Below the pieces are notes generated by a model, which was given only the letters and a program-made list of their open reading frames with translations, did not search any database and was not told where the DNA came from. A stretch of 64,000 bases of DNA from an uncultured Oleiphilaceae bacterium (GTDB taxonomy: Bacteria > Pseudomonadota > Gammaproteobacteria > Pseudomonadales > Oleiphilaceae): contig CAJXUY010000003.1 in assembly GCA_913060665.1 (NCBI GenBank), positions 186,001 through 250,000 on the forward strand. Reading direction: 5' to 3'. A program made the translations under genes and the position numbers. Shown one piece after another: positions 1,557-41,521 of this stretch (positions are counted from its first letter, which is position 1; every line of letters starts with the position of its first letter).

Positions 1557-1746
1557 GTTTAATACCGAATACCATTCAAAATAAAGAAAGATTACATTAA
1601 TTAAAATAATATAAAATTCAGTAACGTGCGGCTACCAATAGATGATAGAAACAAAGTATGGGTCACATTAATAGGAGGAAAAGCCCCAGACCAAGAAATG
1701 AGGTAGATAGAGGATGGAAACTACACTTGGAATTTGAATCGCATAC

Positions 1747-1768
1747 AGGGCTGAGAGAACTCAGCCCT
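1747..1768 (-). terminator. Hairpin downstream of the first DUF6160 gene
   Basis: A perfect 9-bp inverted repeat (AGGGCTGAG / CTCAGCCCT, loop of 4) lies 18 bases past the stop of the leftward gene ending at 1786. There is no clear T-tract on either side, so its role as a terminator is likely but not certain. Confidence 0.5.
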
Positions 1769-1785
1769 ATCGTTAGGTATTTATA

Positions 1786-2625
1786 CTAGTGCCCATAAAT
1801 TTCCATATGGGTATTAGTAATAGCAAGGTTATCAATAAAAACTGACCCTATTGACTGACCTCCAAGCTCAATTGACCCTATGCGAACATCCATCTCGAGG
1901 GGGTTAATATCAATGGCCAAAGCCTCACCACCAGCAGAGTTCACATTAGTTGTTGAATACATTTTAAAGTCAACATCAAAAAATGCTCGCAATTGCTGGG
2001 GCGCAACAGGGTTAAATGTATTACCTGTTACCTGTACATCCCTAACACCCAAGGACAAAAAATCCGAATCAAAATCCATATCATCAATCGCGACAGATGC
2101 CACAACATTTAATGAATCATCCTGGGTATCAACTATAAATGAAGCAGCCCCCATCAAACCCACTAAATTAAAATTAGACATTAAAACGGTTGAATCAGCA
2201 GTGCCTTGCAACTCGACTGAGTCAATACCCACCGCAAAATCAATTACGCCAAATGATTGAGGCCCCATATTAACAATCGCATCACCATCAGCACCCACAT
2301 CAATGGTAACTTGAATGTTATCGAGCGTATCACTTGCAGCAACACCCCATGAACTTATACCTAGATAGTTTGTTTTATTTGCACCGCCTATAGACACGTT
2401 TTGAATGGACAGACTCCCCCCACCCAACTCTCCAGCAGCACCACTATTAACATCGGTATAAACAACTTCACCAATATCAATTTTAGTCTCTAGCTCGATT
2501 GTAATACCCGCTTGACCAGTGACTTCACTTAACGCTGAATCATCAATTGGTCGAATTTCTGCAGAAGATAATGCAGGCAGCATTATCCCCAGTGCTAGCA
2601 ATGACTTTTTATTCAGGCCACTCAT
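1786..2625 (-). CDS. DUF6160 (FilA-like) secreted protein, paralogue 1
   Basis: This 279-residue protein has an N-terminal signal peptide (cleavage near LSSAE) followed by the block characteristic of the DUF6160/FilA-like family: DDSALSEVTGQAGITIELE. The rest is repetitive beta-strand sequence rich in Asp, Gly, Ser and Val (SIGG, NIQVTIDVGADGDAIVNMG, DDMDFDSDFLSLGVRDV), ending in MEIYGH. FilA-type proteins in Acinetobacter are linked to surface filaments. That link is family knowledge; the role here is unproven. The start has a good Shine-Dalgarno sequence (AAGGAT, 7 bases upstream). The gene lies just downstream of its paralogue at 2824-3702, with which it shares the N-terminal block, the DFLSLG motif and the YGH ending, so tandem duplication is likely. 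Confidence 0.8.
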   Translation of the reverse strand: MSGLNKKSLLALGIMLPALSSAEIRPIDDSALSEVTGQAGITIELETKIDIGEVVYTDVNSGAAGELGGGSLSIQNVSIGGANKTNYLGISSWGVAASDTLDNIQVTIDVGADGDAIVNMGPQSFGVIDFAVGIDSVELQGTADSTVLMSNFNLVGLMGAASFIVDTQDDSLNVVASVAIDDMDFDSDFLSLGVRDVQVTGNTFNPVAPQQLRAFFDVDFKMYSTTNVNSAGGEALAIDINPLEMDVRIGSIELGGQSIGSVFIDNLAITNTHMEIYGH

Positions 2626-2754
2626 ATTTAAATCCTTCTTTACTATTTAATTATTATCAGATGGGGCCAGTAATTCAAGATACCCTAATATCAACCTCAC
2701 CCCACCTCAGTTTACCCCCCTAATCCAATAAAAAAGTGACGTACTCCGCACAGA

Positions 2755-2789
2755 CAAAAAAAAACCGCCCTACTGGGCGGTTTTTTTTC
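2755..2789 (-). terminator. Bidirectional Rho-independent terminator
   Basis: A 7-bp stem ACCGCCC / GGGCGGT (2764-2770 and 2775-2781, loop TACT) is flanked by an A-run on the left and a T-run on the right, so it has U-tracts for both strands. It lies 35 bases past the stop of the DUF6160 gene at 2824 and should end that transcript before the paralogue at 1786-2625. Confidence 0.9.
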
Positions 2790-2823
2790 AGGAGGTAACC
2801 TCCAGAAAACAATCTAGACGATC

Positions 2824-3702
2824 TTAGTGACCGTAAACCAACATTGAAGTCTGGCTAATTACTAGATCGTTAATAGCGATCTCACCGATAGAAGTTCCAC
2901 CAAGAGACATATCCATTGCGATGTCAGCTTCGAAGAATTCAATACCGACTGCTAGACCAGCGTTACCAGTTGCAGCACTAGTACCAGCACCAACACTCAT
3001 GATAGCAACTGCTGCATTACTGCCAGGTGCCGCAGTATTGATTGTAGTTGTAGTACCTTGAGCAGTTGCACCAGCAGTGTTACAAGCAACGTCAGCACCA
3101 CAAATTGCTGCTACGTCTGCAGACGCATCACTTCCAAGTGTTAAGTTCTGGATACCTAAAGACAAGAAGTCAACATCCATATCAAAGTCAGTCATAGTGA
3201 ACGCAGCAACTATGTTCAACGTATCAGTAGCAGTATCAACCTGGAAGTTTAACTTGTAGAGATCACCTTCAATGTTGATGTTAGAAGCAAGCAACGTTGA
3301 ATCAGCAGCAGCATCGTTACCAATCAAAGATGCTCCAGCGATAGTCACACCATAATCAATTGGAGCGCCAGATGCAGAGTGAACATCAATGATTGCATCG
3401 CCATCTTCAGCAAGATCGATATCGATCGCCAAATCATCCAACAGTGATCCACCACGACCACCGATAGAGATACCATCTACAGACAAGCTACCACCACTTA
3501 GAGCTGCGTCGCCGCCAGCTGCTAAAGTATCTGTGTAAACAATAGAACCGATATCAACCTTAGTTTCTAATTCGATAGTGATACCAGCTTGACCAGTTAA
3601 CTCACCCATTGCGCTGTCATCTAGAGACTTAAGCTCAGCGTTAACGCCAAAAGATGCAGCAGAGATAGCAGTTACTAAAGCAATTTTATTCAGGCCTTTC
3701 AT
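2824..3702 (-). CDS. DUF6160 (FilA-like) secreted protein, paralogue 2
   Basis: This 292-residue exported protein starts MKGLNKIALVTAISAASF. An upstream in-frame extension exists, but the ATG at 3702 has a strong AAGGAG six bases away and begins a normal signal peptide (cleavage near VNAE), so it is preferred. The mature part opens with SLDDSAMGELTGQAGITIEL, the same block as in the neighbour at 1786-2625. It continues with beta-rich Asp/Gly repeats, including DVDFLSLGIQNL and an extra Ala/Thr/Gly-rich insert (about residues 190-240) with two cysteines that the paralogue lacks. It ends MLVYGH. The terminator at 2755-2789 follows. A surface-filament or envelope role is inferred from the family only. 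Confidence 0.82.
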   Translation of the reverse strand: MKGLNKIALVTAISAASFGVNAELKSLDDSAMGELTGQAGITIELETKVDIGSIVYTDTLAAGGDAALSGGSLSVDGISIGGRGGSLLDDLAIDIDLAEDGDAIIDVHSASGAPIDYGVTIAGASLIGNDAAADSTLLASNINIEGDLYKLNFQVDTATDTLNIVAAFTMTDFDMDVDFLSLGIQNLTLGSDASADVAAICGADVACNTAGATAQGTTTTINTAAPGSNAAVAIMSVGAGTSAATGNAGLAVGIEFFEADIAMDMSLGGTSIGEIAINDLVISQTSMLVYGH

Positions 3703-4016
3703 TTTATTCTCCTTGAGAGATTTTTTAGTTTTGTTATTTTTGATACCTTGAAGAATACTTCTTCGATATCTTTTGTTACTGCCCAACTCGCTATTTACGC
3801 TTGGCTTATTATTTTTTGCCTTCACCCTGTTGCGAGTCAGTGAGTTCATTCTATGGCGTCGAACTTTATTATTCCGTGAACGCAGTCACATCCTGTTACG
3901 CTTTTGTTTTATTACACACAATTTTGCAATTAAGTTAACAAAAAAACACCTACCGATACTTAAAAAAATTAACCTAACATATTGTTTTTATTGTACAACC
4001 AATAAAAAAAGGTCAT
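3703..4016. other. Intergenic region upstream of DUF6160 paralogue 2
   Basis: This 314-base, very AT-rich gap holds the upstream region of the leftward DUF6160 gene and the downstream region of the leftward gene at 4017-4574. The only long open frame is an N-terminal extension of the DUF6160 gene with no ribosome-binding site. No consensus promoter, hairpin terminator or RNA gene could be identified by eye. Confidence 0.5.
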
Positions 4017-4574
4017 CTATTCATCAAGAGACTTAATGTCGTCTTCAGTCAACATAACTTGCGGCGCATGCTCTCGCTCCACACTTTCACCGAATAACAA
4101 CTTGCCATCAACCCTCTTATAAGGTGTCGCACTAATGAATGAAACACCAATAGAATGCTCTAGCTCTACCACCAATACACGATTATTACTCCCAGCTTCA
4201 TCCGTTGCTTCAACTGTATAATAAATCGCACTCGTCGCAATTTTGCGAGATCTGGCGAGGACATTTAGGCTACGTCTAAGTATTTCAATCGCAACAGAGT
4301 CGTCAAAACGCTCCTCCCCTAGTTCAACATACTTAATTTCACCGTTGGGCTTAAATACAGCCGCATAGGGTTTGAATACAATATCATTCTCAACTTTGGC
4401 TTGCGCTCTATCAATAGACTGTGCCATCAAGTACAGCAACTGCTCTTTCGCTTTCTCTTTAGAGAATGCGTCAAGGTCAGCGCCATACACTTCATCTTCG
4501 GCCAAAATCGTTTGAGTCGACATAATACCTCCAAACAATACCAGTACAATTATTAGTTTGTTTATTATTTTCAT
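4017..4574 (-). CDS. Unknown exported protein
   Basis: I do not recognise this 185-residue protein. It begins with a clear signal peptide (hydrophobic IIVLVLFGGI, cleavage near TILAE). The mature part has a helical segment (KEKAKEQLLYLMAQSIDRAQ), then alternating beta/alpha sequence with FKPYAAVFKPNGEIKYVELG, and an acidic C-terminus (EDDIKSLDE). There are no cysteines in the mature part and no transmembrane helix after the signal, so a soluble periplasmic location is likely. It is divergent from pabB (162 bases between starts) and faces the same way as the DUF6160 genes. No function is proposed. Confidence 0.7.
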   Translation of the reverse strand: MKIINKLIIVLVLFGGIMSTQTILAEDEVYGADLDAFSKEKAKEQLLYLMAQSIDRAQAKVENDIVFKPYAAVFKPNGEIKYVELGEERFDDSVAIEILRRSLNVLARSRKIATSAIYYTVEATDEAGSNNRVLVVELEHSIGVSFISATPYKRVDGKLLFGESVEREHAPQVMLTEDDIKSLDE

Positions 4575-29857: not shown

Positions 29858-29883
29858 AAGCCTTCACTTTAGAAGGCTTTTTT
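29858..29883 (+). terminator. Rho-independent terminator after the PhaJ-type gene
   Basis: An 8-bp stem AAGCCTTC / GAAGGCTT (loop of 6) is followed by Ts. It ends at the stop codon of the leftward motor operon (29882) and may serve both strands. Confidence 0.85.
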
Positions 29884-30823
29884 ATGACTGAAAGAAATCG
29901 ATGGGATACGTTATTGTTTTTGCAGTAACGGACTGAGCGCCAAAATTAAACAACCTAACACGGGAGACTATTTTCTTCTCTAGAGTAGGTGAGTTTAGAT
30001 CAGATGAAACAACCTCACAAGACGAGACAGCACCACTAGCCTCTATCGTAAGTTTTAAGACCAACTTTCCTTCAATAGAAGGATCTTTTCTCAACTCTCG
30101 ATGGTAAAGCGTAAATAGCGATGATTTGTTTTGATCAAATACACGCCGAATATTGCCACTGCTTCTTGCGCTGCCTTTCTTCTTGGCCTCAGCAGTCAAT
30201 TTCTCTGCTTCACTCTCTTCAAGAACGGTACTTTGTCGCTGAGCTAATGCAACGGATTCTGCGGGAACAGCCATTCCGGAAGTATCAACACCTCCACTGC
30301 CCCGCAATGCCCGACCTTCATCAATAGCGGTTGCACTTGCCGCAATGGTTTTTGCTACCATATTCGGTGTTTCTGTTAGTGCACTCGTATCTAACGTTGC
30401 ACGCATATCAGCCAAGTCATCTTGCAACGCTAATAATCCACTGGACTTTGCGACTTTTCTGGCTTCTTCAACTTCCACTTTTAGGGGGGGCTTTTTTATT
30501 TCTGGCTTGAGTTTCGGTTTTGGCTCAGGCTTCACCTCTTTTTTTACCTCTTCAGGTTTTTTTTCAGGTTCTTCCTTTTTCGGTGAAGCAGGCTCTTCTT
30601 TAGGCTTAACCTCTGCCTTTTTCTTTTTGATGATAACTTTCGCCAACTGAGGCGGTAATGCCTCTAGCTGTGACCTGTCTTTTTCAGGCAGGTCAATATT
30701 CGGAATAATAAACGCTAAAGGTGAAACCAACACGAATAGTAATAGAACGATTCCCCAATAGCGTTTGGACTCATTTGAAACCTTACTCCAAGGCAGTACA
30801 AGGTTATCGGCATAGGGCTTCAT
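29882..30823 (-). CDS. AgmX/PglI C-terminal-domain (TonB-like) transducer
   Basis: This 313-residue protein has a short cytoplasmic N-terminus and a single transmembrane helix (about 24-44, GIVLLLFVLVSPLAFIIP). A Lys/Pro/Glu-rich periplasmic stretch follows (residues 60-120, many KPEEVKK-like units). The C-terminal domain of about 90 residues (LFTLYHRELRKDPSIEGKLV, then GAVSSCEVVSSDL, ITYPIDFFQS) is of the AgmX/PglI type known from Myxococcus gliding (GltG/GltJ). The layout is that of TonB/TolA: energised by a channel complex, reaching across the periplasm. It is the last gene of the nine-gene operon, one base after an ExbD gene. The partner in the outer envelope is unknown. Confidence 0.83.
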   Translation of the reverse strand: MKPYADNLVLPWSKVSNESKRYWGIVLLLFVLVSPLAFIIPNIDLPEKDRSQLEALPPQLAKVIIKKKKAEVKPKEEPASPKKEEPEKKPEEVKKEVKPEPKPKLKPEIKKPPLKVEVEEARKVAKSSGLLALQDDLADMRATLDTSALTETPNMVAKTIAASATAIDEGRALRGSGGVDTSGMAVPAESVALAQRQSTVLEESEAEKLTAEAKKKGSARSSGNIRRVFDQNKSSLFTLYHRELRKDPSIEGKLVLKLTIEASGAVSSCEVVSSDLNSPTLEKKIVSRVRLFNFGAQSVTAKTITYPIDFFQS

Positions 30824-30824
30824 A

Positions 30825-31334
30825 CTATCCCTTCTCCTTGCGCGCCGCTTTGGATACCGCTAATGAAATATTAGTATAGTTAGCGGAGACACAGCTTTCC
30901 ATAATCTTTTTTAACGAATGGTAAGGGATGTTTTTATCCCCCATTATCGTTATTGGTAAACCACCAACATTAGTATCACCCGCCAACAAGCGCTTATTGC
31001 GTGAAGCCTGATATTCAAGTTCGTTCTTGATGCCAACAATTATCTCGTCTTCACCTGACAACGTATTTAGGCTGGCTACCTTTCGTCCCTGTATGAGAAT
31101 ATCACTCCCAACAACTGTAAGAATCAGCGTTTCTTTGGTATCGACGCTTGCGGTGGACTCTGGGAGTTTAATGGACGGATTCTGCTGAAGTACTTTCACA
31201 TCGGACGAGTTCACCATCAAGAAAAACACCAAGATAGTAAATATATCCATCAACGATACTAGGTTAAGTCCACCTGTCTTGTGCATTCGACCATAATGCC
31301 GCCGCTTACGGTTAGCTCTTCGTGATACTTTCAT
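30825..31334 (-). CDS. ExbD/TolR-family stator protein 2
   Basis: This 169-residue protein has one N-terminal transmembrane helix containing the critical Asp (NLVSLMDIFTILVFFLMVNS) and a periplasmic ExbD/TolR domain (TLILTVVGSDILIQGRKV, PITIMGDKNIPYHSLKKIM). ExbD-type subunits pair with an ExbB/TolQ channel and carry protons through that Asp. The start overlaps the previous ExbD gene by four bases. Two different ExbD proteins with a single channel gene is the arrangement of AglQ/AglS in Myxococcus motors. Confidence 0.9.
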   Translation of the reverse strand: MKVSRRANRKRRHYGRMHKTGGLNLVSLMDIFTILVFFLMVNSSDVKVLQQNPSIKLPESTASVDTKETLILTVVGSDILIQGRKVASLNTLSGEDEIIVGIKNELEYQASRNKRLLAGDTNVGGLPITIMGDKNIPYHSLKKIMESCVSANYTNISLAVSKAARKEKG

Positions 31335-31897
31335 TGAGCGCCCCCTACTTTGCTATCATTCAAATCTGTATTGGATTTATCGCCCTCAGCCTCTGCGCCA
31401 GCATTAACACTTGATAAATCGGGTGCATCGCCAATAGAAATATCAGGGAACAGCTCTGCGTCAACCAAACTTACAGCTACGACAGCAGGATATGACCGCA
31501 CAGTATCCATTGCAGTGACCAATGTCTGGTACGAGGTATCTTTTTCTGCCAATAACGATATATCTTTTTTATCTGGCAAACGGGCTTTTAATTGCTTTAA
31601 CAGCTCTCTTAAGTCGGCAAACTGATATTGTGAGTCTATATTTTCAATACGTTTGATCAAGCCGTTTTTAGAATCCGCAACCACCAGTGCATCAGTCCTA
31701 ATAACCACTTGTAATTGAAGGTTTTCATCACTGAGGTTTAGTTCAGACGGGCCAGCAGGGAAGTTCAGATCTAAGATACTGGTATGCGCAAACACCATGC
31801 TAAGTAGCAATACCGGCACGAGTACGATCATCAAATTCATAAACGCAGTAATGTCTAGCTCAGGCTCAACGTGTAGTTTTCTATGTTTCCTTCTCAT
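31331..31897 (-). CDS. ExbD/TolR-family stator protein 1
   Basis: This 188-residue protein has a basic N-terminus (MRRKHRKLH), a transmembrane helix with the conserved Asp (LDITAFMNLMIVLVPVLLL) and a periplasmic domain (ISLLAEKDTSYQTLVTAMDTV). It ends with an acidic/Gly tail (about residues 160-188) that its operon partner lacks. It is probably the first of a heteromeric ExbD pair. It overlaps the next ExbD gene by four bases and follows the TolQ/ExbB gene by about 100 bases. Confidence 0.9.
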   Translation of the reverse strand: MRRKHRKLHVEPELDITAFMNLMIVLVPVLLLSMVFAHTSILDLNFPAGPSELNLSDENLQLQVVIRTDALVVADSKNGLIKRIENIDSQYQFADLRELLKQLKARLPDKKDISLLAEKDTSYQTLVTAMDTVRSYPAVVAVSLVDAELFPDISIGDAPDLSSVNAGAEAEGDKSNTDLNDSKVGGAQ

Positions 31898-31998
31898 ACA
31901 ACCTTTCTTTTAGACTGTTCCTTTTGATGCAACTATCGAGTATTAAAAAAACAAAACTCATTAAAGTTGCCCACAGGTATCCTTCGAATCCGAGTGCG

Positions 31999-32643
31999 TT
32001 AGTCTCTACTAAGTGAAGGTTGCTCAGAAATTATGTTGAGTAGCTTAACCCCGGCCATTTCAAAACTATCTACGATTTCATTCGTCTTAGTTTGAAGAAC
32101 TGCATGGCAGAGCAAAAGTGGAATAGCGGACATCAAGCCAAACGCTGTAGTATTCATTGCAACCGAAATACTTTGCGAAAGCAGAGATGCTTTTTCAGCA
32201 GGGTCCGCATTGGCAACCGCTGTAAAGGCAGCGATAAGACCAATAATAGTGCCTAATAGACCTAGCAATGTAGAAACATTTGCTAATGTCGCTAGATACT
32301 GAGTACGCTTTTCTAACCGAGGCAGTGTTTCCATTAAACCTTCCTCCATCGCATATTCAATATCTTCTCGCTTTTGTTTATTAATGAGTCGGCTCAAACC
32401 AGCCCCCATAATTGATGCAATCGCAGTTGCTGAATCATTTGAAAATTCTAGCGCACCTTTATAGTCACGTTTTTTCAAGAGCGGTAATATCGCTTTATCA
32501 AAGGCGCTACGGTTGGCGTTTTTTGCCAAACTAAGATAGACAAACCTTTCAATAGCAATAGCGACGCCTAATACAAGAACGATAGCAATCGGGTACATAA
32601 ACAACCCGCCTTCCTGAAAAAAACGAACGACCGTATCAGTCAT
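31999..32643 (-). CDS. MotA/TolQ/ExbB-family proton channel protein
   Basis: This 214-residue inner-membrane protein is predicted to have three transmembrane helices: one near the start (GGLFMYPIAIVLVLGVAIAI) and two in the MotA/TolQ domain (LANVSTLLGLLGTIIGLIAAF and SVAMNTTAFGLMSAIPLLLC, each trimmed). The GTIIG and AxxTTxxGL elements are typical of proton-conducting stators. The start is taken as ATG at 32643 with GGAG upstream; a GTG at 32655 is less likely. In this operon it supplies energy to two ExbD partners and the AgmX/PglI-type protein. Confidence 0.92.
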   Translation of the reverse strand: MTDTVVRFFQEGGLFMYPIAIVLVLGVAIAIERFVYLSLAKNANRSAFDKAILPLLKKRDYKGALEFSNDSATAIASIMGAGLSRLINKQKREDIEYAMEEGLMETLPRLEKRTQYLATLANVSTLLGLLGTIIGLIAAFTAVANADPAEKASLLSQSISVAMNTTAFGLMSAIPLLLCHAVLQTKTNEIVDSFEMAGVKLLNIISEQPSLSRD

Positions 32644-32710
32644 ATCCTTTAACACTCCGTGATTTGTACATTGAAATATTGATTTCTATTATGCTGTTTG
32701 GCTCTGTTAT

Positions 32711-33052
32711 TTATTTTCGACCATTTAGCGCTTGAACTCTAACCTGAAGTTTATTTCTAAAATGGTAATCCTCGTTGTGAAACGCGGGTTCTATGGGGTT
32801 TATAATGCCACTTAACTCAATATTAGGTGGATGTTGAGCCCTTTTCTGATAGGCAGGAGGCTGCCAGGGAATAATATACAAGACCTCTGGCTGCTCATTG
32901 CTACCTGTAACACTAATTCCTTCAAATTCTGTTGACTGTGTAGTCGTATCAGCATAAGTACTCAATGAAAAAACCATCATCAAAATCAGTATAATAACCT
33001 GTACGGGAGCTACAAAGTTAATTCCCGTAAATGAATCGCCCAGCCATCTCAT
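32711..33052 (-). CDS. Unknown small exported protein of the motor operon
   Basis: This 113-residue protein has a signal peptide or membrane anchor (VIILILMMVFSLSTYA) and a short periplasmic part. The notable motif is EGISVTGSNEQPEVLYIIPW followed by QPP. The C-terminus is basic (VRVQALNGRK). I do not recognise a named family. The start overlaps the stop of the upstream TPR gene by four bases (ATGA), so it is translationally coupled and a real member of the operon. A structural or assembly part of the envelope complex is a guess from context. Confidence 0.72.
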   Translation of the reverse strand: MRWLGDSFTGINFVAPVQVIILILMMVFSLSTYADTTTQSTEFEGISVTGSNEQPEVLYIIPWQPPAYQKRAQHPPNIELSGIINPIEPAFHNEDYHFRNKLQVRVQALNGRK

Positions 33053-33756
33053 CGGCTACGCCTTTTGAGGTCTTTAATCCAGCTAACTACATTCTTGTCA
33101 GGGCTATCTGCGCCATTTTCATTTACTGTCGCTAAATAGCGTTCATAATGATCAATAGCTTTTTTATAATCATGCAGGTAAAGCTCGTTCAAGACCGCCA
33201 TATTATAATGTAACTCAGGGTTATCAGGTGCAATACTTAGTCCGTTACGATAATAATTCAGTGCTTGGTCGAACTCTCCCTGGCTACGTGCAATAACACC
33301 AAGGTTGTTATACGCGAGGTAGTACCGCTTATCCACTTCAATTGCTCTATTATAAAACCCAATTGCGCCATTCAAGTCTTTCTGACTCTCAGAAATAACA
33401 CCAAGGTTGTACAAAGGCGCAGCAAGGTCCGGGTATTTATCAACGACCTTGATCAATAAACTGTCAGCTTCTGCAAACTGCCCGTTATCAATCAACGTAA
33501 TCGCTCGGTGATATTCCTTTAACGAAACTGCATCCACAATTTTAGGGGCAATAGATTGCGGCACAATAACTTGGATATTCTCAGCAGGCTTTGTGGCTAC
33601 ACCAGAGCAAGCGGACATTAAAAAGGCCGCTATTAAAACGAACCAGTGCTTCAACACAAATAACTGGTTAACGATACGAGTAAACAACGTAATATGTACC
33701 GAACTCATTCGAACCCGCAGGAGGCTAATACTATTGAATATTGCGATCATGGCCAA
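33049..33756 (-). CDS. TPR lipoprotein of the motor operon
   Basis: This protein has a lipoprotein-type signal (LIAAFLMSAC, Cys50 from the TTG start) and about four TPRs (PLYNLGVISESQKDLNGAI, LAYNNLGVIARSQGEFDQAL, LHYNMAVLNELYLHDYKKAI). It ends in a basic WIKDLKRRSR. It should be anchored to the outer membrane and act as a scaffold. The TTG at 33756 has GGGGAG seven bases upstream; ATGs at 33750 and 33708 are alternatives, the latter giving a more usual signal length. It overlaps the upstream TPR gene by about 26 bases. It compares with AglT/GltE-like TPR lipoproteins; this is inference. Confidence 0.82.
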   Translation of the reverse strand: MAMIAIFNSISLLRVRMSSVHITLFTRIVNQLFVLKHWFVLIAAFLMSACSGVATKPAENIQVIVPQSIAPKIVDAVSLKEYHRAITLIDNGQFAEADSLLIKVVDKYPDLAAPLYNLGVISESQKDLNGAIGFYNRAIEVDKRYYLAYNNLGVIARSQGEFDQALNYYRNGLSIAPDNPELHYNMAVLNELYLHDYKKAIDHYERYLATVNENGADSPDKNVVSWIKDLKRRSR

Positions 33757-36616
33757 TTGACTTCTCCCCTCTTAGATAACGCGCAGGAACAATGGTACCT
33801 AATACCTGGTAACTTTCTTTTACCCAATTATCATAAATGCCATTTTTTGTACGACTTATGTTAATTTCGTGAACCTCGATCGCTTTTTCTTCAAATGGGT
33901 AGGCCTGCTCTTCAAGTAATATTTCATATTGCTCCAACTGAAGCTCATTAAGTGATTCAGGGCGTTCAGATATTATGATGTCGCTTCCCAGTTGGCGATA
34001 GACTTCGGCAAGCTTATAGGTTGCCTCTGTTGTAAGTTGAGCGACACCATAACTAGGAATTTTCTGCAGCTGATCGACCGAAGATTTGAGCAATGCGCTT
34101 TTCTTCTTAAGTGACTTTTTAAGCGGTAAGGTTAATTTCGAATCAGCAAATCTATCTAAACCCTCCTGGGCTAGAACCATACTCGCAGTCGCTGCCAAAA
34201 ACTTTGATCGCCCATTTCTGTTCTGACCGGCTGCAGCATCCGCTTTTATTAGTTTGTTTAACCAAACATCCCTTCTTTTAGTATCACCCACTTCAGCATA
34301 GTGCTGAGCGATCGTTTGATGCCCTTCGATATACAGATCGAAAGGTTCCGGGTATTCAGATACATACTGAGTCAGTAGCATCACAGACTGATCTTTAACC
34401 CCGGCCGACGCATAAAGGCTGGACGCTTGATATAGCGCAGCCCGAGATTTATCTGAGCCGGGGTACTTTTGACTCAATAAAACCAACTGATCAGCGGCAT
34501 CAAGCTTATTTCCACTTTCAAGGTGGGCATATATCAGCTTTTCAGGAACTGTCTCCGCTAACTCGGAGCCAGGATACTCTTTTATAAAGCGGTTCAACAC
34601 GACAATGGCTTCTCGCCACTGTTTTAGCTCAAGCATTTGCACAGCGGCATCATACTGGGCGTTTACCCGCAACCCCGAGGAAGGCACGACACGACTTAAT
34701 CTCAAGAATTGATCAACGCCGCCTTGACGGTCGCCTGAAGCAATTAATACCTCGCCCTGCCGGTAAATAGACACGGCCCTGCGCTCATTAATCACATTAA
34801 GGGATTCCCGCTGATCTCCTAATAGGTCAATTGCCATTGTGTAAGCATGCTCTGACGACTCATAGTCTTGTAATTCAAAATTAGAATGCCCATTCACTAA
34901 CCAGCTTGATCGCTTTAACGCATTCGTCGCTAGCGGATGCTCTATCACTGTACGCGAACTATCCCTCGCATCTATAAACCGGCCAGACTTTAAGTGTTCA
35001 TTTGCTAAATCATTCAGCACTGCTGGCACACGTTTATCTTCAGGAAAGTGTGTAGTAAATAACGCAATACTCTCATATCGGTGACTCTCACTTTCAACCG
35101 TTTGCTGATAGTCGCGTTGTTTCAATTCATTATGAGTGAGTATTGCCGCATATCCCGCTTCAAGCGCAAAAGAATGAGTGCCGGCTTTGTACGCTGAGTA
35201 TTCATAATCTACAACAGCCATATGTAGGTTATTAGATTTATAGAACGATTCAGCTGCCAAAAAGCTATATTCGCCTACATTTTCGTCCGCAGGGAAAGCC
35301 GATACCAATAACCGATAAAACCCGCCTGCGTTATGGTAAAGCGCTTCCTCTTCGTCACTGCTGATTGCTTTCGGAGCAGTGGATTTTTTCTGCGCGGACA
35401 CATAATAAAAATGGGAAAGTTCTTGCAGGTATTGCCTTAACCACTGTGCAACCTCAACCCTATTACCCTCTGTTACCGCTCCGGAAACAGATGACGGCAT
35501 GTTTTGTGCTGGAGCCAAATAGGCGGGGCTATAGCTCTCTACAAAAATTTCCTTCTCTTCCCATACCTTTATCGGAAAGCCCCCTTTAGCGTAAGCGTTA
35601 ATGATTGAACGCTGCATAATTGGGGATTGGCTATCATCGCCAAAGCGACTGATGTAAGCTCTTGCTGCACTGGCACTATCTTCGTAACGCTGTTGAGATA
35701 AATAAAGGTAGGCCAATTGAAGGTACAAGAGATGACTATAAGGTCTGTTACCTATCTCATCTAGCAAGTCATCAATGGCTACAGCTCCGTTTTCGTAAGA
35801 AAACATCAGGCTCATTGCGCGAAGTGTATCCCGAACCGTTTCCCCTTCGATTCCTTTCAATTCAAGCAGTGTAGATTGTTGCGCTTTTGTTTGCGTATTA
35901 AGGTGATCTAACACGCTAATAAAAGTCTTGCCAGACTGATTATATTGGCCCTGCTTAAACTGAGACCACCCCATCATAAACAGCGCACTATCATGAAACT
36001 TCGACTCTTTGCTACTAGCCAATGACTTTTTATAGGCTTTCTCAGCCTTTTTATACTGACCCAGCGAGAAGTGCGCTTCCCCGATTCTAAACTGTGCTTC
36101 TACTGCCAAGTAAGAGTTGGGATATAGCCCTACCAAACTCTTTAGACTTTTAAGCGATTTTTCATACTGACCCGTAAAGTCATACGCCTTAGCCGTTTGA
36201 TATAGAAGCTCGTCGATTCGATTGTAGTAAACCCCTGTACCGACGATCATTTCATAACTATCAAGTGCTTTCTTATATAGTGCTCGCTCTTCTTCTATTG
36301 AACGCTCTTTTTGGTCGCCGTAAATGGCTTCAAGATTAGTCAACCGATGTAGAACATCAATTCTTACCTCTGGTACTGAGGTATCATCGAATAATTGACG
36401 GTATCGGCGAATGATTTCTTTAATTGGTACAGAGGGAAGCGGCTCTTGATCAAAATTAAGAAAGGCAGGTTTAATATCACCAATCACCTCCGGCTCTGCA
36501 TCAAAATCTATTTTGAATGAGTTTTTCACTGCAGCGGAGGCATTTATTGATATAAATAGTAGTGACAACAACAATAGAGATGCAGTAAATACGAGGCGTA
36601 CTAGTGAACCAATCAC
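33731..36616 (-). CDS. Large periplasmic TPR protein of the motor operon
   Basis: This 961-residue protein has a signal peptide (LLLLSLLFISINASA) and then TPR-like helical repeats over most of its length. Examples are LLYQTAKAYDFTGQYEKSL, AQFRIGEAHFSLGQYKKAE and ALFMMGWSQFKQGQYNQSG near the N-terminus, and more around residues 560-760. Outer-membrane anchoring is not evident. Such long solenoids usually hold multiprotein envelope machines together. The GTG start overlaps the upstream gene by four bases (GTGA) with AGGGGGT in front, so it is coupled. Sequence similarity to Myxococcus Glt TPR proteins is a hypothesis from operon context. Confidence 0.82.
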   Translation of the reverse strand: MIGSLVRLVFTASLLLLSLLFISINASAAVKNSFKIDFDAEPEVIGDIKPAFLNFDQEPLPSVPIKEIIRRYRQLFDDTSVPEVRIDVLHRLTNLEAIYGDQKERSIEEERALYKKALDSYEMIVGTGVYYNRIDELLYQTAKAYDFTGQYEKSLKSLKSLVGLYPNSYLAVEAQFRIGEAHFSLGQYKKAEKAYKKSLASSKESKFHDSALFMMGWSQFKQGQYNQSGKTFISVLDHLNTQTKAQQSTLLELKGIEGETVRDTLRAMSLMFSYENGAVAIDDLLDEIGNRPYSHLLYLQLAYLYLSQQRYEDSASAARAYISRFGDDSQSPIMQRSIINAYAKGGFPIKVWEEKEIFVESYSPAYLAPAQNMPSSVSGAVTEGNRVEVAQWLRQYLQELSHFYYVSAQKKSTAPKAISSDEEEALYHNAGGFYRLLVSAFPADENVGEYSFLAAESFYKSNNLHMAVVDYEYSAYKAGTHSFALEAGYAAILTHNELKQRDYQQTVESESHRYESIALFTTHFPEDKRVPAVLNDLANEHLKSGRFIDARDSSRTVIEHPLATNALKRSSWLVNGHSNFELQDYESSEHAYTMAIDLLGDQRESLNVINERRAVSIYRQGEVLIASGDRQGGVDQFLRLSRVVPSSGLRVNAQYDAAVQMLELKQWREAIVVLNRFIKEYPGSELAETVPEKLIYAHLESGNKLDAADQLVLLSQKYPGSDKSRAALYQASSLYASAGVKDQSVMLLTQYVSEYPEPFDLYIEGHQTIAQHYAEVGDTKRRDVWLNKLIKADAAAGQNRNGRSKFLAATASMVLAQEGLDRFADSKLTLPLKKSLKKKSALLKSSVDQLQKIPSYGVAQLTTEATYKLAEVYRQLGSDIIISERPESLNELQLEQYEILLEEQAYPFEEKAIEVHEINISRTKNGIYDNWVKESYQVLGTIVPARYLRGEKSIGHDRNIQ

Positions 36617-38508
36617 TTTCCACCCCCTTTAGACGCCTTATTTTTAATCGAATACTGTGTCATCGCGACAAACTCATACAAATGAGCGAGACGTTGCTGA
36701 GCTGTTTCATGATGCGCAACGAATTCGGATTTTTTGTTGGATAACAACTCAATAACTTGCTCAGTCAGCATTTTATTTTGCTCAGCTCTAATACGATGAA
36801 CATCCGACTTCCGTTTTTTAACCGTTGCTTTAAAACTGGATACTCGTGACTTTAACGTTTCTAACTTTTTAGGACCCCTAGATATCAACAACTCGAATTT
36901 TTTTAAACCTTGTTCATATCGTTCTATCTCTTTATTTAACGAGACAAGTGTTTCTTTGCTCAAGCGTACGTTGCGCTCATACTGCTCTTTAGCCTCCCAC
37001 TTCACCAACCCTTGAAGGCGGGTGAGGCGCACATTTAGGTCTTGAAACTGTCGCGGAGTTAACGTTGTTCTGAGCCCCTCGAGACGCTTAGTCAACGCGT
37101 CAACCGATTCGAAACGCCTCAACGTTCTGCCGGCTGATACCGCAAGTAAATTTTGACCATTCCCTGCTTCGCTCAACTCGTGCTCAAGACGCTTTGTCTC
37201 GACGGAAATATGAGCAATTTGTTTTTTCCGTTTAGCTGTATTAATTTTCTTGGTTCGTTGTTTATAACCTCTAATACGATCCCTTAACATATCATCGTAA
37301 ATCGATAAGTTGTATTCCCAAAGCAATAGGTTTTGATATAACATTTCTAGCTCGATTGACTGCTTTGCTAGCGCATGTAACCGGCTATCGGACATAATCA
37401 GTTTAAAATAGGCAACCTTTGGCGTATTAGTTGCGATACTATCTGAAAGAAACCACTCAATATCATCAAGCGAACTACTTTCAAAAAAAACATGACTAGC
37501 CCCTTTTTCCGTTACTGCTTGAATAACCTTATCAATATTTCGGGTTTCCTTATCAAATACCGAAATCGCTTCTAAATAGGTTGATATCGCCTTACTACTA
37601 TACCCCTCTTTATCATACGCATATGGAATCGCTAAAAATGCGTCCGCAACACCTTGATCGATCAGTGGATATTTTTTTACGCGATACCAGGATTGAATTG
37701 CTGCACGATACTGTTCCTTGCCTGCATTTGCTACCCCGTGCATATAGAGCGCTTTAGGAGCAAGATCACTATCAACACGAACCTGATTCAAAAAACTAAG
37801 TGCTTTATCATAATCTTCTACTTGTACCGCTAAATAGCCAGCAGAAAGTGAAGTTTGATCTTTAAGTTCAACTAACGGGGCAGTGTCTTTTGGGTTAAGG
37901 GCCTCCGCTACTCGAAGTGAAATAATTGACCTTGTGGGCTCGCTATCCATCGCGGCATATGACATTGCAAGATTATAATAAGCATACGCGGCCCAAGACC
38001 CAGGATTCATTTGGCCTAGGATTTGAGCTGCCGTACTTTGTTTGTCTAAATGAATATAAACATTGGCTTTATAGTAAAGTAATTCTGGAAGCTGTTTTTT
38101 ATCTATATTCTTTTCAGCTTTTTTAAACCATTGCAGCGCTGAACCCCAATCTGATTGCTGATAAGCCATCACACCAAGTTGAAAATAAGAGGCCGCCTTC
38201 GTTTTGCTATTACTAGTTTGACTAAGTTTCTTGTACCTTATTTTTGCTTGCTCGGTGAGACCGAAGCTGAATTCAGAGTGAGCAAGGTCAAATACCACCA
38301 GATCAGATGATAAATTAGGTGATCGAACAATGGCATCAAAGAAGTTGTCCTGATGAAGTTCGAACAGCATCATCCCTTTTGCAAGGCGTTCGGGTAACGG
38401 TGAAGTGGCTGTGTTGTTTACTAGAACAGTGTCTTTTGCAACGCTAGCAAAAGAAATAAGGACAGCAAACACTCCCGCCATATAATGAGGCGACAATAGT
38501 TTAGTCAT
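36613..38508 (-). CDS. TPR plus coiled-coil periplasmic protein of the motor operon
   Basis: From the ATG at 38508 (AAGGTAAG upstream) the protein has 631 residues and a signal peptide (MAGVFAVLISFASVAKD). The first part holds TPR-like repeats (AASYFQLGVMAYQQSDWGSAL, trimmed; AYYNLAMSYAAM). From about residue 410 to the end it is a long highly charged coiled coil (VRLSKETLVSLNKEIERYEQ and similar), long enough to bridge much of the periplasm. The gap to the first operon gene is 10 bases, and its stop overlaps the next GTG. An in-frame extension upstream of 38508 lies within the preceding gene and is not supported. Confidence 0.82.
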   Translation of the reverse strand: MTKLLSPHYMAGVFAVLISFASVAKDTVLVNNTATSPLPERLAKGMMLFELHQDNFFDAIVRSPNLSSDLVVFDLAHSEFSFGLTEQAKIRYKKLSQTSNSKTKAASYFQLGVMAYQQSDWGSALQWFKKAEKNIDKKQLPELLYYKANVYIHLDKQSTAAQILGQMNPGSWAAYAYYNLAMSYAAMDSEPTRSIISLRVAEALNPKDTAPLVELKDQTSLSAGYLAVQVEDYDKALSFLNQVRVDSDLAPKALYMHGVANAGKEQYRAAIQSWYRVKKYPLIDQGVADAFLAIPYAYDKEGYSSKAISTYLEAISVFDKETRNIDKVIQAVTEKGASHVFFESSSLDDIEWFLSDSIATNTPKVAYFKLIMSDSRLHALAKQSIELEMLYQNLLLWEYNLSIYDDMLRDRIRGYKQRTKKINTAKRKKQIAHISVETKRLEHELSEAGNGQNLLAVSAGRTLRRFESVDALTKRLEGLRTTLTPRQFQDLNVRLTRLQGLVKWEAKEQYERNVRLSKETLVSLNKEIERYEQGLKKFELLISRGPKKLETLKSRVSSFKATVKKRKSDVHRIRAEQNKMLTEQVIELLSNKKSEFVAHHETAQQRLAHLYEFVAMTQYSIKNKASKGGGK

Positions 38509-38518
38509 TGAACTTACC

Positions 38519-39079
38519 TTAATGCCATTCTGTAAACTTGAATTCGGGCTCAACGCCCGTCGAGTCGGAGAGACCAATTTCTATAAATTTTGAACGATTA
38601 GACTTCTCGAAGTTGAATGTTTTGTCTTTTCTAAAATAGTGGTCATTGGCTCCTTGACCATTAAATACTGCTGTCAGTTTATGAGGCCCAGAGGAAATAT
38701 TACCCATATAGAGGCGCTGAATCCCCCCTTGCTCTAACGCCTTTATTTCTGACTCAGTATACAGGTATGTGGTGGCTATTTTACCGTCTATCTTAATCTC
38801 TACTGAATCGAGTAAAAATTTGTTTTTCGTTTTAACTGATAAGAATAGAGCCACTTGCGTATCAGCGGGATAGAGTAGCTCTTCTTCTAATTCAAAAAGT
38901 GCTCTATTAAGTTCGACCACGTCAGCTTTTAGTTTTTGAGCTTTTGACTGAATAGATTGCTCCGCAGCATAAGCAGACGAGAGTCCTGTGCCGAAAACCA
39001 AAAGGCAAACAGTTAGCAATGATAGAATTATGATCTGTGTTTGTGGTATTTTTTGTTTTTGTTCAAGAAGCAACGTCAT
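38519..39079 (-). CDS. Unknown exported protein, first gene of the motor operon
   Basis: This 186-residue protein has a signal peptide (IIILSLLTVCLLVFGTGLSSAYA), then a short helical stretch (SKAQKLKADVVELNRALFEL). A beta-rich domain follows (TQVALFLSVKTKNKFLLDSV, IDGKIATTYLYTESEIKAL, GIQRLYMGNISSGPHKLTAV), ending EFKFTEWH. The domain reads like an immunoglobulin-like or carboxypeptidase-regulatory-like fold, but I cannot name the family. It opens a leftward run of nine closely packed genes down to 29882. Expected location is the periplasm. Confidence 0.75.
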   Translation of the reverse strand: MTLLLEQKQKIPQTQIIILSLLTVCLLVFGTGLSSAYAAEQSIQSKAQKLKADVVELNRALFELEEELLYPADTQVALFLSVKTKNKFLLDSVEIKIDGKIATTYLYTESEIKALEQGGIQRLYMGNISSGPHKLTAVFNGQGANDHYFRKDKTFNFEKSNRSKFIEIGLSDSTGVEPEFKFTEWH

Positions 39080-39439: not shown

Positions 39440-40618
39440 CTATTTAGTGAGCTCTTTCATCCCCTTCTCGAGTCCCTGAATCGTTAGGGGGTACATTTTG
39501 CCCTCTACTAACTGCTGAGTCATACCCAGAGACCCGCCCGAACCCCAGTATGATTCAGGCATAGGGTTCAACCAAATAACCTTATCGAAATGCTCAACAA
39601 CCCTTTGCATCCAAACAGCGCCAGCTTCGTCATTCCAGTGTTCAATACTGCCACCTGGCTGTGTAATTTCATAAGGCGCCATTGATGCATCACCAACAAA
39701 AATTACTTTGTAGTCAGACGTATATTTATGCACTAAATCCCAGGTATGGGTTGTTTCATTCATTCTTCTAACGTTGTTTTTCCATATACTTTCATAGATA
39801 AAGTTATGGAAGTAGAAGTATTCGAGATGCTTAAACTCCGTTCGACAGGCTGAAAATAGCTCTTCACAGACTCGAATATGAGGGTCCATCGACCCACCGA
39901 CATCGAGAAATAGTAATACTTTAACGGTGTTATGTCTTTCTGGCACCATTTTGATATCAAGATATCCAGCGTTACGAGCAGTCGATCTGATAGTATCATC
40001 TAAATCTAACTCCTCTTCCGCACCTTGCCTAGCAAATTTACGCAACCGCCGTAACGCCATTTTGATATTTCTAATACCAATAGTGACGCTATCATCTAGA
40101 TCTTTATAACCTCGTTTCTCCCATACCTTTACAGCACGGCCATGTCTCGATTTATTTTGGCCAATCCGAAACCCTTCTGGGTTATATCCATTGGCACCAA
40201 ACGGGGAAGTTCCGCCCGTGCCAATCATTTTATTTCCACCTTGATGTTTTTTCTTTTGCTCTTCTAAGCGTTTTTTGAACGCATCAATAAGCTCTTCTAA
40301 GCCACCCATTCCTTCGATTTTTGCTTTGTCTTCTTCCGATAACTGTTTTTCGAATTCAGCCCTCAACCATTCATCAGGAATCGCTTGCGCCATCAAGTCA
40401 TCAAGGTGTTCAATCCCTTTGAAGTAGCTGGAAAACGCTCTGTCGAACTTGTCGAAGTGTCGTTCATCTTTAACGAGACATAAACGACTTAAGAAGTAGA
40501 AATCGTCCATGTCGGCGAATGCCAAATGCTCCTGAAGCGCCTCCAACAAGTCCAAAAACTCTCGGAGAGTCGCAGGAACTTTAGCTTTCCGGACTTCTAG
40601 AAAAAAACCTATTAACAT
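39440..40618 (-). CDS. CoxE-like VWA-domain protein
   Basis: This 392-residue cytoplasmic protein has a C-terminal von Willebrand A domain of the CoxE type with MIDAS motif LFLDVGGSMD (Asp239, Gly241, Ser243), preceded by a helical N-terminal half with Glu/Lys-rich segments. Proteins of this family work with MoxR AAA ATPases as chaperone-like or cofactor-insertion pairs. The MoxR gene is directly upstream (gap 60 bases). The client is not known, and no carbon monoxide dehydrogenase genes are nearby. Confidence 0.88.
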   Translation of the reverse strand: MLIGFFLEVRKAKVPATLREFLDLLEALQEHLAFADMDDFYFLSRLCLVKDERHFDKFDRAFSSYFKGIEHLDDLMAQAIPDEWLRAEFEKQLSEEDKAKIEGMGGLEELIDAFKKRLEEQKKKHQGGNKMIGTGGTSPFGANGYNPEGFRIGQNKSRHGRAVKVWEKRGYKDLDDSVTIGIRNIKMALRRLRKFARQGAEEELDLDDTIRSTARNAGYLDIKMVPERHNTVKVLLFLDVGGSMDPHIRVCEELFSACRTEFKHLEYFYFHNFIYESIWKNNVRRMNETTHTWDLVHKYTSDYKVIFVGDASMAPYEITQPGGSIEHWNDEAGAVWMQRVVEHFDKVIWLNPMPESYWGSGGSLGMTQQLVEGKMYPLTIQGLEKGMKELTK

Positions 40619-40678
40619 GAAATATACCCAAACTGAGTTTTAGTTTCACACTCTGCGACCGCAAAACAAGTGCGACAC

Positions 40679-41521
40679 CTAACCTTTACGACGACTCATA
40701 AATGCAAGCCTTTGCAGCAAATGTACATCCTGCTCATTTTTAACGAGAGCGCCATATAAAGGCGGTATCGCTTGTGCGGGATCATGTTCTTGAAGTAATG
40801 CATTACCGAGTTCATCAGCCATCAGTAGTTTTAACCAATCAATTAACTCAGATGTTGATGGTTTCTTTTTCAACCCCGGTACTTTACGTACATCAAAAAA
40901 GATATCCAGCGCTTCCTTTACCATATCTCTCTTAATGTCTGGAAAATGAACATCAACAATCTTGTTCATTGTAGCTTCATCAGGAAAGCTAATGTAGTGG
41001 AAGAAACAGCGGCGTAAGAATGCATCAGGAAGTTCTTTTTCATTATTACTGGTAATGATAACAATCGGTCGATTAGTCGCCTTTACGATTTCTTGAGTTT
41101 CATAAACAAAAAACTCCATTTTATCGAGCTCTTGCAGTAGATCATTCGGAAATTCAATATCCGCTTTATCGATTTCATCGATTAACAAGATAACTCTCTC
41201 TTCCGCCTTAAAAGCCTCCCACAATTTACCCTTCACTATGTAGTTACCAATATCTTTAACGCGCGTATCACCTAGCTGAGAATCTCGAAGGCGAGATACA
41301 GCATCATACTCATAAAGCCCCTGCTGAGCCTTACTTGTAGATTTTATATGCCATGGAATCAACTTTGCATCAAGTGACTTGGCTAACTCTTCAGCAAGCA
41401 TGGTTTTACCTGTACCTGGTTCACCCTTAATCAATAGAGGCCGCTGTAGCGTAATCGCCGCATTAACCGCCATCTGTAAATCATCTGTAGCAACGTATTG
41501 ATCAGTACCTTTAAATTTCAT
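40679..41521 (-). CDS. MoxR-family AAA+ ATPase
   Basis: This 280-residue MoxR-type ATPase has Walker A GEPGTGKT (33-40), Walker B VILLIDEIDKAD (Asp115, Glu116), sensor 1 IITSNNEKELPDAFLRRC with an Arg finger region, and a C-terminal helical lid. MoxR proteins pair with VWA proteins to remodel or activate client complexes. The CoxE-like partner follows immediately. It is divergent from cysK, with about 204 bases between starts. Confidence 0.92.
   Translation of the reverse strand: MKFKGTDQYVATDDLQMAVNAAITLQRPLLIKGEPGTGKTMLAEELAKSLDAKLIPWHIKSTSKAQQGLYEYDAVSRLRDSQLGDTRVKDIGNYIVKGKLWEAFKAEERVILLIDEIDKADIEFPNDLLQELDKMEFFVYETQEIVKATNRPIVIITSNNEKELPDAFLRRCFFHYISFPDEATMNKIVDVHFPDIKRDMVKEALDIFFDVRKVPGLKKKPSTSELIDWLKLLMADELGNALLQEHDPAQAIPPLYGALVKNEQDVHLLQRLAFMSRRKG

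Follow-up and report, generated by a model that had tools for sequence, protein, structure and literature searches.

A nine-gene operon of an uncultured Oleiphilaceae bacterium: a probable non-gliding relative of the Myxococcus Agl-Glt machine with an Asn/Asp pair of ExbD subunits

A tight array of nine genes on the minus strand of contig CAJXUY010000003.1 from an uncultured Oleiphilaceae bacterium, at positions 29882-39079 of the 64,000-nt stretch analysed here (the window), encodes relatives of the Agl-Glt proteins of Myxococcus. The array has the gene content and order of the Agl-Glt core complex, and its products are kin to AglR, AglQ, AglS, GltD, GltE, GltG and, weakly, GltC; its two ExbD subunits carry an Asn/Asp pair at the presumed proton site, and relatives of its genes are linked, in other genomes, to type VI secretion and surface-redox genes. 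We consider it likely that the operon is a complete Agl-Glt core complex, that is, a proton-driven, envelope-spanning machine in which a motor that seems to bind protons at one of the two usual sites acts on a species-specific client. The operon belongs to a known, functionally uncharacterised family and is probably a non-gliding cousin of the Myxococcus machine. Rings of the MotA/ExbB type with ExbD-type dimers turn proton flow into motion.

Results

The nine-gene array and its recurrence in Gammaproteobacteria

In transcription order, the genes encode P9 (38519..39079, 186 aa), the counterparts of GltC (36613..38577, 654 aa as listed), GltD (33731..36616, 961 aa) and GltE (33049..33756, 235 aa as listed), P5 (32711..33052, 113 aa), and the counterparts of AglR (31999..32655, 218 aa), AglQ (ExbDb, 31331..31897, 188 aa), AglS (ExbDa, 30825..31334, 169 aa) and GltG (29882..30823, 313 aa). 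Neighbouring genes overlap by 4 bases in three cases, are separated by gaps of 1, 55 and 101 bases, or overlap by 59 and 26 bases, the latter two values depending on mechanically assigned TTG starts; later in-frame ATG codons lie at 38508 (GltC) and at 33750 and 33708 (GltE). An earlier note on this DNA had described a packed nine-gene operon, and all nine open reading frames (ORFs) were found at the positions it gave. Family models support the ring protein AglR, of the MotA/TolQ/ExbB type (Pfam MotA_ExbB, 104.6 bits), both ExbD genes (Pfam ExbD, 63.8 and 47.6 bits) and the AgmX/PglI C-terminal domain of GltG (NCBIfam myxo_SS_tail, 67.5 bits with a cut-off of 40).

We searched 143 genomes across Gammaproteobacteria, the genome of the window included. 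A strong GltD-like match (best E < 1e-50) was found in 35 genomes, with some tetratricopeptide repeat (TPR) match at E 0.001 in 84, and the AglR profile gave a bimodal distribution, with 38 places of at least 257 bits in 33 genomes and a next match of 131 bits. All 33 AglR genomes fall within the 35 GltD genomes; the two with GltD and without AglR (G067 and G076) are assemblies of about 500 and 780 contigs. Around GltD, 46 loci were fetched, the window excluded, some of which end at contig edges. By clean (rebuilt) profiles or direct phmmer searches, the source of the locus counts and Myxococcus scores given here, P9 is present in 37 of these loci (38 by direct phmmer), GltC in 40, GltE in 39, P5 in 41 and GltG in 32; the motor is present in 32, with the 'AglR' of L050, which groups with TolQ in the tree described below, excluded from the counts. 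Gene order and strand are as in the window wherever the genes occur. All nine genes were found in 23 of the 46 loci using earlier profiles, of which those for GltC, GltE and P9 had absorbed GltD or fused ORFs. Recurrence at these counts in other genomes shows that the nine-gene array is not due to chance, and by the same counts P9 and P5 are roughly as constant as the genes that bear names. The TPR genes are present in most homologous loci, so that one outcome named in the earlier note as speaking against its reading did not occur.

Kinship of the motor and transducer

In a tree of 50 AglR and related sequences, an Agl clade of 45 (support 100/99) stands apart from five TolQ/ExbB-type sequences, two of which come from the genome of the window itself. 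The window AglR falls in a gammaproteobacterial core clade of 38 sequences (99/95) nested in the Agl clade; the tree drew a program warning about long branches for the outgroup sequences and for L192, L198 and L213. Residues T136, T169 and T170 of AglR are invariant in 21 aligned sequences. In a sequence search of the PDB, AglR matched TolQ and ExbB entries only and GltG had a single, unrelated match (E 0.32); the PADLOC model of ZorA, from the Zorya defence system, matched the ring protein weakly (13.7 to 16.7 bits only).

The membership of AglR in the MotA/TolQ/ExbB family would also suit a housekeeping role of the TonB or Tol kind, in nutrient uptake or envelope stability, as would the fold of the transducer. 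The predicted structure of GltG has one N-terminal helix, a low-confidence linker rich in Pro and Lys, and a C-terminal domain with pLDDT above 90 (mean of the whole, 69), and in this model the C-terminal domain resembles TonB (Z 8.8, 83 aligned residues, 2.6 Å). By sequence, however, GltG is closer to AgmX/PglI, as the earlier note had held, since its tonB_Cterm score of 26.5 bits falls just below the cut-off of 27.1. The Tol models score under their cut-offs (tolQ 67.4 vs. 221 bits, tolR 32 vs. 127.3), as does exbB (41.5 vs. 206.2), and the NCBIfam ExbD models are also below theirs. By the NCBIfam and Pfam scans, none of the nine genes encodes Pal, TolB or a receptor, and the genome has a separate TolQ (305 bits). 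Together with the position of AglR in the Agl clade, these results agree with the earlier note that the operon is neither TonB nor Tol-Pal, and we regard a housekeeping role of this kind as highly improbable.

For direct comparison, genomes of Myxococcus, Hyalangium, Sorangium and Nannocystis were reached via MglA and then searched. In Myxococcus sp. CA023 (L194), the clean ExbDb profile scores 81.9 bits on the 162-aa AglQ-type protein vs. 16.7, and the ExbDa profile 109.1 bits on the AglS-type protein vs. 34.1; Table 1 of PMC3169522 lists AglR with 245 aa and AglQ with 162 aa, the same lengths as in this locus. GltD scores 313.6 bits on a Myxococcus locus. The weakest link is GltC, with 34.5 and 55.4 bits on L199 (Myxococcus) and L201 (Hyalangium) and 22.2 bits on L192 (Nannocystis). 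Adjoining GltC, P9-like genes occur in L199 (27.8 bits, E 7.7e-8) and L201 (24.6 bits, E 7e-7). The Hyalangium locus L201 contains P9-like, GltC, GltD, GltE, P5-like and GltG genes in window order and no motor, and the Nannocystis locus contains GltC, at that low score, with GltD, GltE, AglR, ExbDb, ExbDa and GltG. Two Geobacteraceae genomes had no AglR-level match (G147 reached 59 bits at best and G148 gave nothing), and their TPR matches were weak only; the core complex is reported from Geobacter in the relevant passages of PMC3169522.

This kinship raises the alternative that the operon is a gliding or surface-motility motor in the source bacterium. The only NCBIfam gliding models that match any of the nine proteins score far below their cut-offs (GltG 46.4 vs. 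650 bits, GltE 39.3 vs. 225, GltJ 20.4 vs. 450), the Pfam scan found no FHA domain in the window GltG, the motor has the Asp/Asn pair, and motility by the core alone is judged unlikely in the passage of PMC3169522 that treats it. We therefore give a gliding role very little credence. The earlier note had proposed a reduced, non-gliding or uncharacterised relative of the gliding motor. Its proposal of kinship is borne out by the tree and the clean-profile matches, whereas 'reduced' is unsupported, because the set is already published, its function then unassigned, and is treated as an ancestral core that later acquired the gliding modules (PMC3169522, in the passages on the core). The note had also overlooked the Asp-less ExbD and the recurrent partner clusters elsewhere.

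An Asn/Asp pair at the proton site

At the position that we take to be the essential Asp of ExbD, TolR and MotB, the window ExbDb has Asn21 (codon AAT, 31835-31837), whereas ExbDa has kept Asp30 (GAT, 31245-31247). We read this position in 38 gammaproteobacterial motors, namely those of the 32 loci, the window, and L206, L207, L210, L212 and L213: the first subunit, ExbDb, has Asn in 37 and the second, ExbDa, has Asp in all 38. Three more motors, linked to type VI secretion (G207, G352 and G185), are all Asn/Asp, so that ExbDb has Asn in 40 of 41 motors and ExbDa has Asp in 41 of 41. Nannocystis has the Asn/Asp pair in its core motor as well. In the two motors each of Myxococcus, Hyalangium and Sorangium, Asp was found wherever the helix was readable (one Sorangium ExbD was not), and the motors with AglR and AglQ of the gliding lengths (L194 and L196, the latter from Hyalangium) have Asp in both subunits. 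Asp is also present in the TolR and ExbD proteins read from the genome of the window. The core motor is thus without a site reported to be essential for gliding. For AglQ and AglS, both are predicted with Asp, and whether they form homo- or heterodimers is not known, according to the part of PMC9389320 that deals with them.

Since a dimer with Asn only cannot carry protons by the accepted mechanism, and the pairing is constant, the core motor probably uses an ExbDa-ExbDb heterodimer with one Asp and one Asn. Alternatively, ExbDb might lie outside the shaft, with AglR forming ordinary motors with two ExbDa, and act in regulation or as an anchor to peptidoglycan, a paralogue that lost its Asp because it carries no protons; an accessory subunit would be expected to lose its catalytic residue. 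The lost position holds Asn almost throughout and does not vary freely, which points to a role under constraint within the ring. The ExbDb gene adjoins ExbDa in the motors read, and one lineage has Asp again. On balance we find an accessory role unlikely.

Output modules without an adjacent motor

No adjacent motor was found in 10 of the 46 loci, despite more than 7 kb of downstream sequence (L042, L043, L045, L050, L051, L054, L057, L058, L064 and L079). Some of these are partial, with GltE and P5 missing from L050 and L051, and only a remnant of GltD in L064. All seven host genomes (G128, G081, G056, G075, G077, G137 and G064) have AglR elsewhere: for L054, L057 and L058 it lies some 30 kb off, past a type VI secretion system (T6SS) cluster, and G056 has a free-standing AglR-ExbDb-ExbDa-GltG unit (L212). 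In Myxococcus, AglRQS drives both Glt and Nfs (PMC3858216, in the text on these modules). By analogy, one motor may serve more than one output module.

Linkage to type VI secretion

In four genomes (G128, G077, G137 and G352), the T6SS cluster (TssA, B, C, E, F, G, J, K, L, M, ClpV, TagF, PppA, PpkA and TagH) has AglR-ExbDb-ExbDa-GltG at one end, beside PpkA, and GltC-GltD-GltE-P5 at the opposite end, downstream of ClpV; several kb lie between ClpV and GltC in G137 and G352. The G207 cluster was read from TssM onwards; here the motor sits inside it, between PpkA and TssA, with all genes on one strand. Pfam matches in G128 support TssB, C, E, F, G, K, M and TagF, a PP2C phosphatase and a kinase, and an AAA+ ATPase for ClpV; in the remaining genomes, T6SS genes took their labels from similarity to those of G128. 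TssA, TssJ, TssL and TagH of G128 are presumed assignments from sequence features and position.

A ClpV at least 75% identical to that of G128 occurs in 7 of 369 genomes, G128 included (G128, G077, G137, G352, G207, G245 and G185). In G245, GltD and a truncated AglR share a contig with ClpV, and G185 has the motor beside PpkA-PppA-TagF-TssM on another contig than ClpV, with no T6SS-linked GltD found there. The linkage thus extends over all seven genomes of this identity group, with two gaps. Of 30 ClpV loci, 4 have GltC at a distance of no more than 1.5 kb, and these belong without exception to the group of at least 75% identity; two other ClpV loci gave weak TPR matches (40.8 and 44.5 bits). 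Three T6SS-linked AglR proteins form one clade (100/96). A further locus, L213 of G006, has a phosphatase-like ORF nearby and is not counted as T6SS-linked; its AglR lies outside the clade of the other three.

A T6SS subtype with a built-in Agl-Glt motor (L205-L211, L244-L248) is seen on a single contig in five families, represented by G128, G077, G137/G352, G207 and G245. A partial ClpV in G367 is 73% identical to that of G128. The ClpV of the window's own genome (G000:C11:110287-112959) is 64% identical to it and lies on another contig than the window; this genome has one AglR only and one strong GltD match only.

Linkage to surface-redox genes

Genes of flavin/haem surface-redox proteins accompany 17 of the 46 loci, in two sets (12 + 5). 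The first 12 loci have at least three of an HZS_alpha-domain haem protein, an SH3/beta-barrel protein, a beta-barrel protein, a TlpA-like thioredoxin and a DUF3570 barrel, each family being named from one representative; the set is on the opposite strand in L085. The motor is present in eight of these loci and missing from four (L043, L045, L051 and L079). The other five (L042, L068, L069, L076 and L077) have a LamG/haem protein and a partner without a Pfam match, on the other strand in L068 and L076, and three of the five also have ApbE. DUF3570 is given as a substrate of ApbE flavinylation in the relevant part of PMC8238504. Multihaem genes lie downstream in L045 and L082. The genome of the window has one DUF3570 gene, on another contig; no HZS_alpha was found in it, a search that is uninformative as the control genomes also gave none.

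In L045, the protein downstream of the motorless module (963-4436) contains 45 CxxCH haem motifs, and in L082 a related ORF directly after GltG, cut by the contig end (first 2662 bases), contains 21. In L039, L044 and L046, very large ORFs (1296, 1375 and 1392 aa or longer) come after GltG of the complete operon, the first two being interrelated. Such ORFs may encode surface clients.

Proteins of the output module and the upstream genes

Pfam TPR repeats score above the cut-off in GltE and GltD; in the exported GltC, which has a long helical C-terminal part, they stay under it (best TPR_16, 26.9 vs. 32.7 bits). GltE is a lipoprotein with the lipobox-like motif LMSAC. GltD has a signal peptide, and at least 90% of 21 aligned sequences have an N-terminal, lipobox-like Cys where the window protein has Ile; because of this replacement, the window GltD may be a soluble periplasmic protein. 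ORFs of 1353 to 1518 aa that span GltD and start well ahead of it occur in L053, L072, L080 and L081, and those of L072 and L081 look like possible GltC-GltD fusions by a GltC profile that was contaminated.

Neither P5 nor P9 has a family match over the cut-off in the Pfam and NCBIfam scans. P5 is a small exported protein with a family motif, G-x-x-E-x-P-x6-P-W, after its signal peptide. It occupies the position of GltF, a Group A gene product, in Myxococcus, and its likeness to GltF is limited to place, size, signal peptide and short motif (hhalign probability 8.7%, E 0.0038, a weak match; 11.2 bits by clean profile). The exported P9 is predicted by AlphaFold2 (mean pLDDT 88) to have a long N-terminal helix and a transthyretin/Ig-like beta-sandwich. 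Its best fold match has Z 9.9 over 96 aligned residues (2.5 Å), and an assignment of P9 to a known domain was dropped, as the searches return common sandwiches of this kind, which give no function.

Upstream of P9 by 360 bases, on the same strand (39440-41521), lie genes whose products we take, from their sequences, to be a protein of the VWA type and an AAA ATPase of the MoxR type. As members of the system these were rejected, being beside the core complex in 0 of 46 loci.

Discussion

The core complex was described by Luciano et al. (2011, PMC3169522) as gltD, E, G and C with aglR, Q and S in one cluster, function unknown, in several Gammaproteobacteria, one betaproteobacterium, Geobacter and Fibrobacter, with one additional gene that lacks a Myxococcales homologue, as its core-complex passages state. 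Wartel et al. (2013, PMC3858216) repeat this description in the part concerned and suggest a basal transport machine. The window has the same seven genes (Group B) clustered. It differs from the account in PMC3169522, as far as that text extends here, in having two constant extra genes, P9 and P5, rather than one. P9 is possibly the additional gene; if so, the P9-like genes beside GltC in Myxococcus and Hyalangium are contrary to that passage.

The Myxococcus xanthus gliding machine has a related ring, two ExbD subunits, a GltG transducer and GltC, GltD and GltE as in the window; motors with AglR and AglQ of the gliding lengths (Myxococcus sp. CA023 and Hyalangium) have Asp in both ExbD subunits, whereas the window ExbDb has Asn21. 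In the Agl-Nfs spore-coat machine of M. xanthus, as described in the part of PMC3858216 devoted to it, one motor has more than one output module, the arrangement proposed here; the window showed neither a sporulation nor an Exo-polymer context. ExbBD-TonB and TolQRA-Pal belong to the same motor superfamily, and GltG shares the TonB-like fold, but AglR lies outside the TolQ/ExbB-type sequences and the window array has two different ExbD subunits.

In the mechanism that we propose, five AglR subunits would enclose one ExbDa-ExbDb heterodimer, and protons would pass via the Asp of ExbDa only. Strokes of the motor would be passed to GltG, whose TonB-like end would reach across the periplasm and pull or twist an assembly of P9, GltC, GltD, GltE and P5 at the outer membrane. 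Force transferred in this way would allow the outer-membrane assembly to move, assemble or energise a surface client. The client would vary by species and may be a type VI secretion apparatus or flavin/haem surface-redox proteins, neither of which is encoded next to the window operon. A bolder version, which we put forward tentatively, holds the core to be a plug-in energiser, a 5:1:1 AglR-ExbDa-ExbDb rotor or piston with one shaft helix permanently neutral, wired into different surface machines.

Several observations weigh against a complete core complex acting on a species-specific client. The GltG and GltE gliding models are far from their cut-offs, and the loss of a catalytic residue also suits an accessory ExbDb. 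The motor of L085 (G017) is Asp/Asp and lies inside the gammaproteobacterial core clade, so that two Asp are tolerated; it looks like a reversion, its exact position in the clade being weakly supported. Neither the T6SS nor the redox set is found at 26 of the 46 loci. The window has neither as neighbours, and a transport role for its operon would be carried over from other loci.

The Asp/Asn motor, the motorless modules in gammaproteobacterial genomes with a motor elsewhere, and the links to T6SS and redox clients go beyond the published accounts as far as the available parts of these texts reach, and do not appear in that part of Luciano et al. (2011). Among the literature matches listed, no title or abstract opening describes a T6SS- or DUF3570-linked Agl-Glt complex or the Asp/Asn pair, which is not proof of absence. 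The available text of a 2025 article on periplasmic force transducers (PMC12204202) mentions AglRQS once, without GltG, AgmX or 'type VI', and that of an article on TolR (PMC4646322) has nothing on the Asn/Asp pair.

The T6SS and redox linkages provide the first client candidates known to us for a gene set whose function was given as unknown in 2011. If the bolder version is true, the T6SS subtype would need the proton gradient in addition to ATP, and the neutral shaft helix would halve the protons per turn or give one-sided strokes. The conserved Asn/Asp pair is a natural experiment on the question, raised for AglQ and AglS in the relevant part of PMC9389320, of homo- versus heterodimers, and a motor having a single proton site per dimer would set limits on how all 5:2 motors can be modelled.

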